From: Nocardioides sp. SYSU D00065
GTDB taxonomy: Bacteria > Actinomycetota > Actinomycetes > Propionibacteriales > Nocardioidaceae
NCBI RefSeq assembly: GCF_017916425.1
Contig: NZ_JAFMSX010000001.1
Span: 1,612,001 to 1,676,000 of the forward strand
Length of the DNA: 64,000 bases
Reading direction: 5' to 3'
The notes beneath the pieces were generated by a model. The model did not search any database, had not been told where the DNA came from, and saw only the letters and a program-made list of their open reading frames with translations. Below, in pieces: positions 5,441-60,036 of this stretch (its first letter is position 1; each line of letters opens with the position of its first letter). The position numbers and the translations under genes were made by a program.

Positions 5441-6721
5441 CTATCCGCCGTCGAGGACCCGCAGCAGCCGCTCGGACTTCCACTGCGCCTCGGCCCACTC
5501 CTCGGCGAGGTCGGAGCGCACCGTGATGCCGCCGCCCGTGCCGAGCGTCCAGGTGCCGCTGCCGTCGGTGGTCAGGGAGCGGATGACGACCCCGAGGTCC
5601 GCCGGACCGTCGCCGCTGATCCACCCGAACGCGCCGGCGTAGACGCCCCGCGGCGTCGACTCGACCTCCTCGATGACCTGCATCGTGCGCAGCTTGGGCG
5701 CGCCGGTCATCGAGCCGGCCGGGAACAGCGCGCGCAGCGCCGCCACGGTCGTGACGTCGTCGCGCAGCCGGCCGCGCACCGTGGAGACGAGCTGGTGCAC
5801 GGACGCGTACGTCTCGACCTGCATCAGCGCGGGCACCTCGACCGAGCCGACGTCGCAGACCATCGAGAGGTCGTTGCGCAGCAGGTCGACGATCATGAGG
5901 TTCTCCGCGCGCGTCTTGGGGTCGCCGGCCAGGCGCGAGCGCTGGGCCTCGTCCTCCTCCCGGGTGGCGCCCCGCGGCGTGGTGCCTTTGATGGGCTTGG
6001 TCTCCAGGTGCCGGTCCGCGGTGACGAGGGCGTACCGCTCCGGCGAGCTCGACAGCAGCCACGCCCGTGCGCCGGCGACGTCGTGCTGGAGGAAGCCGGC
6101 GTACGGCGCCGGGTTGAGCTCGCGCAGCCGGAGGTACGCCGTCACCGGGTCGAGGTCGGCGCGGCGGCTCAGCCGGTGGGTGAGGTTCACCTCGTAGGAA
6201 TTGCCCGCGTGCAGGTGCTCCTGGACGCGCGCGAACGCGGCGGCGTACTGGGTTGTCGGGCTCTCCCTGAGGTTGTCGGCTCTTGCGTGGGCCGACAACC
6301 TGAGGGATCCCCGGCCGGCCGGGGATCCCTCATCCGGCCCCCCACCCCCCACCACCACCGCATGCTCGAACACCCGCACCCCGCGTGGCCGCATCCAGAC
6401 CGCGTCGGGCAGCGAGGGGTCGGCGGCGGCGGGCAGGTCGGTGCGCGAGGCGTAGCCGAGGTAGCCGAACCACTGCTCCCCGGCCCGCAGCCGGTCCTCC
6501 AGCACGGCGAAGACGTCGTCGCCCACGACCTCGGCCCGGCCGCCGGCGTGCAGCCGCACCTCGCGGCGGGCGGCCGACCAGCTCAGCGAGACGTCGTCGT
6601 CCTTCAGCCAGCCGATGATCGAGCGGCGGCCCGACCACTCGCGGGCGCCGCCGCCGTCGAGCCAGAAGCAGCGCGGGTGCGCGGCCGCCACCTCACGGAA
6701 GAAGTCGACCGGGTCGCTCAC
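5441..6721 (-). CDS. pabB: Aminodeoxychorismate synthase component I, carrying an in-frame repeat insertion
   Basis: PabB converts chorismate plus PabA-derived ammonia to 4-amino-4-deoxychorismate for folate synthesis. The 426-aa protein has an N-terminal domain (1-120) and a chorismate-binding domain (about 158-426) with GNSYEVNLTHRL, SSSPERY, the PabB-type ETKPIKGTTPRG (its Lys distinguishes ADC from anthranilate synthases), DLLRNDLSMVC, GSMTGAPKLRTMQVIE and the terminal GTGGGITVRSD. Residues about 131-153 (GSPAGRGSLRLSAHARADNL and flanks) are not PabB sequence. They are encoded by a palindromic repeat that recurs twice elsewhere in the window and sits in the variable linker between the domains. 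Stop and start overlap pabA by 4 bp (ATGA), so both are co-expressed. Activity is probably retained because all catalytic motifs follow in frame. Confidence 0.9.
   Translation of the reverse strand: MSDPVDFFREVAAAHPRCFWLDGGGAREWSGRRSIIGWLKDDDVSLSWSAARREVRLHAGGRAEVVGDDVFAVLEDRLRAGEQWFGYLGYASRTDLPAAADPSLPDAVWMRPRGVRVFEHAVVVGGGGPDEGSPAGRGSLRLSAHARADNLRESPTTQYAAAFARVQEHLHAGNSYEVNLTHRLSRRADLDPVTAYLRLRELNPAPYAGFLQHDVAGARAWLLSSSPERYALVTADRHLETKPIKGTTPRGATREEDEAQRSRLAGDPKTRAENLMIVDLLRNDLSMVCDVGSVEVPALMQVETYASVHQLVSTVRGRLRDDVTTVAALRALFPAGSMTGAPKLRTMQVIEEVESTPRGVYAGAFGWISGDGPADLGVVIRSLTTDGSGTWTLGTGGGITVRSDLAEEWAEAQWKSERLLRVLDGG
6264..6332 (+). repeat. Palindromic repeat element, copy 1, inside pabB
   Basis: The core is 69 nt. 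The first part is a hairpin with 17-nt arms (6264-6280 and 6291-6307, one mismatch, GTTGTCGGC against GCCGACAAC). The second part is a perfect 32-bp palindrome at 6301-6332 centred on GGCCGGCC with BamHI-like GGATCC in each arm. The 69 nt equal 23 codons, so the pabB frame is kept and no stop is created. A short GTTGTCGG duplication (6252-6259 and 6272-6279) lies at the left edge, so the true boundary may be a few bases further left. Unlike copies 2 and 3, this copy lacks the left GTGATCCCCGG part. Confidence 0.9.
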
Positions 6722-7302
6722 GACAGGAAGTTCCTCACCAGCGCCTCACCGTGCTCGGACAGCACCGACTCCGGGTGGAACTGCACGCCCTCGAGCGGCA
6801 GTGACCGGTGACGCACGCCCATCACCACGCCGTCCTCGCTCCAGGCGGTGGCGACGAGGTCGCCGGGCAGGTCGACCGCGCCCAGCGAGTGGTAGCGCAC
6901 GGCCGCGAAGCCCTGCGGCAGACCGGTGAAGACGCCGTCAGCGTCGTGCCGCACGGTCGCGACCTCGCCGTGGGCGGGAGCGAGCCGGGAGACCGTGCCG
7001 CCGAAGGCCGTCACCAGGCCCTGCATCCCTAGGCACACCCCCAGCACCGGTCGCGTCCCCGCCCGCAGGACGGCGGCACCCACCGCGAAGTCGGCAGGAG
7101 TGCCCGGATGTCCCGGCCCGGGCGACAGCACGACGTGCGAGTGCCGCAGCACCTCCTCCGGGGGAACCTCGTCGTGCTGGACCACGCGCGGCAGGACCCC
7201 GGTCACGCGGGCGACGAGGTGCACCAGGTTCCACGTGTAGGAGTCGTGGTGGTCGACCACGACAACATCCGGGATCACGTCCGCGGGCACGTCCGGCGTC
7301 AC
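6718..7302 (-). CDS. pabA: Aminodeoxychorismate/anthranilate synthase component II (glutamine amidotransferase)
   Basis: A class I glutamine amidotransferase subunit of 194 aa that hydrolyses glutamine and channels ammonia to PabB. Visible motifs are DHHDSYTWNLVHL (N-terminal), LSPGPGHP (oxyanion strand), the nucleophile elbow GVCLGMQG with the catalytic Cys, and EGVQFHPESVLSEHG with catalytic His and Glu. It is upstream of pabB on the same strand, with a 4-bp overlap. This pairing, together with the Lys-type PabB motif, assigns the pair to folate rather than tryptophan synthesis. A second, fused amidotransferase-chorismate enzyme is nearby at 9147-11036. Some actinobacterial PabA proteins also serve TrpE; that cannot be judged here. 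Confidence 0.9.
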   Translation of the reverse strand: MTPDVPADVIPDVVVVDHHDSYTWNLVHLVARVTGVLPRVVQHDEVPPEEVLRHSHVVLSPGPGHPGTPADFAVGAAVLRAGTRPVLGVCLGMQGLVTAFGGTVSRLAPAHGEVATVRHDADGVFTGLPQGFAAVRYHSLGAVDLPGDLVATAWSEDGVVMGVRHRSLPLEGVQFHPESVLSEHGEALVRNFLS

Positions 7303-47216: not shown

Positions 47217-47304
47217 GTGATCCCCGGACGTCAGGCTCTTCCGTACGTTGTCAGGCTTTGCAAGGGCCGACAAGCTGAGGGATCCCCGGCCGGCCGGGGA
47301 TCCC
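47217..47304 (+). repeat. Palindromic repeat element, copy 2 (intergenic)
   Basis: The element opens with GTGATCCCCGG (47217-47227). A central hairpin core follows (GTTGTCAGGC at 47248 and GCCGACAAG at 47266), then a perfect 26-bp palindrome at 47279-47304 with GGATCCCC arms around GGCCGGCC. It lies between the starts or ends of the LLM gene and the DEAD-box helicase gene. The minus-strand reading gives a GSPAGRGSL peptide like the one inserted in PabB. Confidence 0.85.
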
Positions 47305-59946: not shown

Positions 59947-60036
59947 GTGATCCCCGGCTGGCCGGGGGTTCCGCAGGTTGTCGGCCCTTGCATGGCCTGA
60001 CAACTTCAGGGATCCCCGGCCGACCGGGGATCCCTC
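59947..60036 (+). repeat. Palindromic repeat element, copy 3 (intergenic)
   Basis: This is the longest copy (90 nt). It starts GTGATCCCCGG, with a left imperfect palindrome (GGCTGGCCGGGG). A central hairpin GTTGTCGGC (59978) and CTGACAAC (59997) with TTGCAT loop follows, then a right palindrome around GGATCCCCGGCC-GACC-GGGGATCC. It lies between the CaiB-type gene and the divergent padR gene. The minus-strand frame reads [20 protein letters not shown], nearly the PabB insertion. Confidence 0.88.

Follow-up and report, generated by a model that had tools for sequence, protein, structure and literature searches.

A palindromic repeat lying in frame in a Nocardioides pabB belongs to a dispersed family that also flanks a gene for a predicted AbiEi/Vsr-like nuclease

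An in-frame palindromic element in pabB

How does a palindromic repeat come to lie in frame inside a gene that stays open, and what spreads such repeats through a genome? The question is raised by a gene in a 64,000-nucleotide stretch of the genome of Nocardioides sp. SYSU D00065 (hereinafter the window), whose product we take to be PabB because the gene is overlapped by one for a glutamine amidotransferase (Table 1). An earlier note on this DNA had described a hairpin and a perfect 32-bp palindrome within the coding sequence, sister copies at two further places in the window and a single reading frame across the insert, and on each of these points the sequence reads as described: the hairpin (H) and the palindrome (P) are present, both sister copies are real, and pabB is one open frame spanning both domains. 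The proposal that the element occupies an interdomain linker likewise holds, with residues 124–144, within the linker, being the sole stretch of the predicted PabB structure with pLDDT below 50. A linker predicted to be disordered, as this one is, would accept any sequence that keeps the frame, and residues ~130–157 are presumably translated.

Table 1. Features of the window discussed in the text
Feature	Positions	Strand	Remarks
pabB	5441..6721	-	single open frame of 426 aa with GTG start; PF00425 (chorismate-binding) domain spans residues 157-415
pabA-like glutamine amidotransferase gene (PF00117)	6718..7302	-	4-nt overlap with pabB start
In-frame repeat element (H hairpin, P palindrome and partial extra arm)	6251..6332	-	PabB residues ~130-157
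Extra arm	6251..6269		GGTTGTCGGGCTCTCCCTG
H hairpin	6270..6301		arms AGGTTGTCGGC...GCCGACAACCT; centre TTGCG
P, perfect 32-bp palindrome	6301..6332		TGAGGGATCCCCGGCCGGCCGGGGATCCCTCA
Second copy	47217..47304		not in frame in a gene
Third copy	59947..60036		P-H-P form; P-to-P spacing 62 bp; not in frame in a gene

The bounds originally given to the insert (6264–6332, residues 131–153) capture its core, and comparison with the other copies in the same genome moves the left edge out to about 6251, for a total length of ~82 nt. At the 12 other places in this genome, H is preceded by an arm like that of 6251–6269 in eight cases and by a P palindrome in four, and most H copies have the centre TTGCA instead of the TTGCG of pabB. 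An assembly error is unlikely, because related inserts occupy the same place in the pabB of N. furvisabuli and of further species that were sequenced independently. We also rejected a known RNA family, as no Rfam model matched the repeat at the gathering score; a plasmid-borne source yielded two weak tblastn matches among the plasmids searched and nothing more.

Dispersal of the family and its position relative to genes

The window taken by itself is a poor guide to the abundance of the repeat: when one mismatch is allowed, the palindrome core CCCCGGNNNNCCGGGG has four matches there against 2.55 expected, which is not significant, and we dropped this count as evidence. Across the genome (3.87 Mb in eight contigs), however, the abundance is far above chance. 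The H-hairpin pattern occurs at 13 places as compared to none for a reversed control pattern, with the longer BLAST matches coinciding with the same 13 places, and the P-palindrome pattern has 51 matches, which include a second repeat family, against none for its control. The spacing of 62 bp between the two P palindromes of a copy recurs in several genomes. At the site of the 47217–47304 copy, the relative G017 has a P-H-P-like copy; G007 and G030 lack such a repeat there. A separate observation concerns locus L002 of the window's genome (G000 C2:640456), where a repeat copy adjoins a 31-aa remnant of the C-terminus of the nuclease described below, 81% identical to it, which suggests a decayed second unit.

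Of the 13 places, the one in pabB alone lies in frame within a gene. The copies (14 rows for the 13 places) are open in three or four of the six frames, and therefore landing in frame is not rare in itself. To extend the count beyond this genome, we fetched the best-scoring copies per genome, dropping matches shorter than 35 nt and four duplicate places, and of the 149 copies fetched 145 were distinct. By our own rule combining frame and GC3, as opposed to gene annotation, 13 of these lie in frame in a coding-like ORF, 12 of them in pabB and one in an ABC protein. Eleven of the 12 pabB copies were themselves the query sequences, and the twelfth, from G007, was met among the repeat hits of that genome; thus just two of the 134 non-query copies are in genes. 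The copy in the ABC protein (L203, G011 C18:33270-33367) stands in frame between two ABC_tran stretches, i.e., ATP-binding domains, and its gene is, on its sequence, a second one with the same in-frame habit. A 29-nt partial match (L068), among the short matches dropped, also lies in an ORF. We further scanned 80 loci around pabB (1.52 Mb) for hairpins and found 80 with a score of at least 13, of which 14 are in pabB linkers and nine in other ORFs; five of these nine are near-identical in five species, look like conserved codons and were rejected as repeats.

Recurrent occupation of the PabB linker

We next consider the same linker in relatives, using an alignment of PabB from 30 genomes of the genus (including that of the window) and 80 named loci, nearly all from Nocardioides. 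Both PabB domains are in a single stop-free frame in all 81 sequences, and the segment from VRVFEH to YAAAF is between 22 and 76 aa long in the aligned proteins. In 46 of the 81 pabB genes the best ungapped inverted repeat of the linker beats all windows of the same length tested elsewhere in the gene. Such strong inverted repeats are present in 45 of the 64 linkers longer than 25 aa and in one of the 17 that are not. The inserts are of several kinds, to which we gave our own labels, assigned partly by eye and partly with simple patterns (G008 being a borderline member of the first): family 1 consists of P and H arranged as P-H, H-P or P-H-P, family 2 is of the GGTTTCGAG...CTCAACCACC type, family 3 of the GGTCGTGTGCC...GGCACACGACC type, and there are further kinds besides. 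The earlier view of one tolerated element therefore stands as regards a tolerated linker insert and fails as regards a single accident. It had also been said that orthologs carrying unrelated or equally long linkers would count against an insertion; several species do carry unrelated linkers of equal length, and many of these are themselves palindromic repeats. Ten genomes from other families of the same order have a segment of 55–76 aa at this position, unlike the Nocardioides linkers. The 76-aa linker of L176 is a case of its own, its DNA folding as one very long imperfect hairpin (-151 kcal/mol).

The linker inserts are also part of dispersed families. When linker DNA was searched against its own genome in ten genomes, chosen for palindromic-looking pabB linkers, the insert had dispersed copies in all ten, with the matches spanning about half of the linker in G025. 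The GGTTTCGAG...CTCAACCACC palindrome enters pabB in some species, and many copies of this palindrome family were seen in G022, G008 and G025. On the other hand, G028 and G034, which are rich in P (22 and 32 matches, respectively), have a short pabB linker without a repeat, and therefore occupancy of the linker is not automatic.

These patterns bear on two alternative explanations. One is that selection maintains the hairpin for what it does in pabB itself, for instance by making the ribosome pause at the domain border or by controlling expression, in line with its recurrence in many species at one position of an operon-like gene pair despite differing sequences. We consider this very unlikely, since 17 of the 81 species have linkers of at most 25 aa, 16 of these without a strong inverted repeat, and since the inserts have the loops and arms of dispersed families and not those of just any stem. 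The other is a single ancient insertion followed in every lineage by divergence of the insert and the dispersed copies alike, through ordinary gene conversion without a dedicated enzyme. The forward form of family 1 is indeed concentrated in one large species group of the PabB tree, and a P-H-P ancestor, a form found in the linkers of L168 and G031, could yield both P-H and H-P. The same consideration led us to drop the reading of the two opposite orientations in pabB as two insertions, because loss of either P from a P-H-P element gives both forms. Nevertheless, close relatives have unrelated linkers, as in the pairs L145/L164, L118/L130 and L162/L173, the last being 93.7% identical in PabB outside the linker; a PabB tree of 81 rows built without the linker, a quick one with 36 of its 78 inner branches open, requires 24 changes of linker state; and G011 holds a different family in pabB despite many copies of the family typical of G015. 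A single ancient insertion is hence an unlikely explanation in our estimate.

A repeat-flanked unit encoding an AbiEi/Vsr-like protein

What, then, might spread these repeats? A scan with the P pattern was positive in 40 of 59 genomes (the control had no match in any of the 59), and in its results and the BLAST lists we noticed pairs of repeats about 1.2 kb apart. The family that entered pabB also bounds a unit of ~1.25 kb encoding one protein with an AbiEi-like DNA-binding half and a Vsr/I-Bth0305I-like predicted nuclease half, a predicted partner gene that the earlier note had missed. In the window's genome this protein has 321 aa (L332:2043-3005). We read nine such family-1 units, namely that of the window's genome and eight others encoding homologs 45–72% identical to it. 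Pfam recovers AbiEi_4 (PF13338) in the protein, with WH4_Lhr below the cut-off; NCBIfam gives no match, and neither collection identifies a known transposase family in the unit. Residues 208–319 are predicted to adopt a catalytic fold of the Vsr/EDxHD type; Foldseek by itself matches Vsr with an E-value of just 0.86, and a sequence profile made from the nuclease alignment had no match among solved structures.

Homologs with E-values of 1e-15 or better are found in 53 of the 59 genomes of the genus. We examined the flanks at the top-match loci of 30 of these 53 genomes, leaving out G031, where the locus is at a contig end: repeats of 33–147 nt flank the best homolog in all 29 usable genomes, 28 of the pairs being inverted and one direct. 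With the flanks cut slightly wider, the scores of the two flanks of one locus against each other are all at least 47, as compared to a median of 26.9 for flanks from different genomes; 75 of the 812 cross pairs reach the own-pair level, and of the 25 best-scoring cross pairs 22 are between species that share a syntenic group. At the same level, none of 29 pabB genes and two of 292 arbitrary 950-nt intervals are flanked. Among 20 further paralogs 19 are flanked, 13 by inverted and six by direct repeats, with L419 unflanked; G008 alone has seven paralogs, and its best match and the six others all have flanking repeats. The places of the units are conserved in species groups of nine, five, three, two and two of the 29 genomes, and therefore the nuclease gene itself seldom moves.

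Pairing of units with repeat families

The genome of the window has three units in all, each matching a distinct dispersed family. The families of the two units other than the one described above occupy at least 33 places in one case and at least 16 in the other, unit ends included (lower bounds, 40 of 76 candidates having been scored). In one of these two units, at L403 (G000 C1:1306487-1307379), the paralogous AbiEi/Vsr gene is split into two pieces in the alignment; its terminal repeats are still present, and its repeat family has at least 14 further places. Across species, we ranked 32 units against the pabB linkers of the 17 genomes that have both a unit and a linker. The genome's own unit came first or second of the 32 for seven of ten family-1-type linkers (G000, G001, G005, G007, G012, G021 and G032); with one unit tested per genome, the linkers of G008, G010 and G017 missed theirs. 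Linkers of other kinds (G009, G011 and G022) and short ones (G014, G028, G033 and G034) had unit matches at the level of noise only, the first rank of its own unit for the short linker of G028 being due to chance (28 bits). We found no nuclease unit for pabB families 2 and 3 (e.g., in G022 and G009), and the linkers of G022, G009 and G025 did not match the flanks of five paralogs checked in those genomes. In G011, the repeat of the type found in pabB flanks an ORF with only weak AbiEi matches (L341; repeat pair ~1.1–1.2 kb), and a second repeat pair of ~1.1–1.2 kb (L342) has an unrelated gene inside.

A contrasting explanation is that these are REP- or MITE-like repeats moved by another, unrelated transposase, with the AbiEi/Vsr gene a bystander to which they serve as operator and terminator. 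AbiEi antitoxins are described as autoregulating through inverted repeats (PMC7319586), and an AbiEi-type autoregulator might instead use the flanking repeats as its operators; moreover, of the 19 copies with both flanks readable eight lie between convergent and ten between tandem genes, as do REPs and terminators, and one lies between divergent genes. Set against this are the match of three paralogous units of one genome to three different dispersed families and the repeat at both gene ends in every usable genome. As for another mover, Y1_Tnp, searched with the PF01797 profile alone, is absent from all 40 genomes of the genus examined (control matches in five of 14) and likewise from that of the window, and we rejected a RAYT with this domain as the mover. 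Overall, we regard the bystander role as somewhat improbable.

A possible mechanism of spread

Taking these observations together, the 82-nt insert in pabB is a copy of a dispersed family, members of which also lie at both ends of a predicted AbiEi/Vsr-like nuclease gene elsewhere in the genome, and we think it fairly probable that this nuclease is what spreads the repeats. The AbiEi-like half would bind the inverted-repeat ends, and the Vsr/I-Bth0305I-like half would cut or nick at these ends or at target sites; host repair or strand transfer might then copy the repeat into the cut site, allowing families to multiply. Old copies, for example in pabB, could be overwritten by the family now active in the given genome, and selection would remove insertions in genes, with those in the pabB linker surviving and the site being re-occupied again and again. 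The same route is only presumed for families that occur in pabB without a nuclease unit. More speculatively, and with some hesitation, we propose that the AbiEi–Vsr proteins might be homing enzymes for their own palindromic ends, with each paralog driving its own family by cut-and-copy repair; the pabB linker would then be a safe harbor in which the active family overwrites the previous one, and PabB a translated record of the latest invasion.

If true, this would represent a new route by which repeats multiply in bacteria, and the non-RAYT palindromic repeats of Actinobacteria would have a partner enzyme from a class not expected in this role. The pabB linker would serve as a natural experiment on how a protein takes up selfish DNA at the same linker over and over. 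A function would also be suggested for a large family of proteins, with 1684 proteins at an E-value of 0.001 or better; among these, informative names are few ("type IV toxin-antitoxin system AbiEi family antitoxin domain-containing protein"), most having none or "hypothetical".

Comparison with known repeat systems

In the titles and beginnings of abstracts that we searched, which cover few subscription papers, there is no mention of nuclease-flanking repeats like these or of repeats in Nocardioides pabB. The closest parallels are REPs and REPINs with their RAYTs (REPtrons) and TIRtrons (PMC3116915, PMC3733652). Like the present families, these comprise short palindromes, also as doublets, in dozens of copies that are mostly intergenic, with several families per genome and one or a few enzyme genes that have the cognate repeat at their flanks. 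Dispersed, mostly extragenic short palindromes and doublets of fixed spacing are both found here, with the caveat that the inverted orientation of the doublets is not independent evidence, P being palindromic. However, the enzyme is AbiEi- and Vsr-like rather than a Y1/HUH tyrosine transposase, and the pabB element lacks the GTAG tag: neither GTAG nor CGTC occurs on either strand of the pabB copy (6251–6332). As in a MITE of an insertion sequence, the short copies have the same termini as a longer enzyme-encoding unit, which here is without a transposase family known to Pfam or NCBIfam.

The two halves of the protein have their own relatives. The predicted fold of residues 208–319 is shared with Vsr/EDxHD endonucleases such as I-Bth0305I; in contrast to that type, no intron or intein is known here, long palindromic repeats border the gene, and the nuclease-like part is joined to an AbiEi-like DNA-binding half. 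With the AbiEi antitoxins of type IV toxin–antitoxin systems it has in common PF13338 and the N-terminal fold, and differs in its C-terminal nuclease-like domain and genomic context: the three neighbors tested at L332 in the window's genome (one without a Pfam match, an AsnC-type regulator and a 5′-3′ exonuclease) include no DUF1814 toxin gene.

With regard to insertion into genes, the earlier note had pointed to Rickettsia palindromic elements, which lie in frame inside functional-looking genes and affect many of them (PMC3733652). The analogy is apt for palindromic repeats in frame in genes that stay open, but does not extend to their spread over many genes: 12 of the 13 intragenic copies here are in pabB, recurrently and from different families, and a single gene other than pabB is affected among the 145 copies. 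The same paper reports that recB of two Xanthomonas species contains different REPs at roughly one position, as compared to which the PabB linker has a strong inverted repeat, drawn from several families, in the 46 species noted above.
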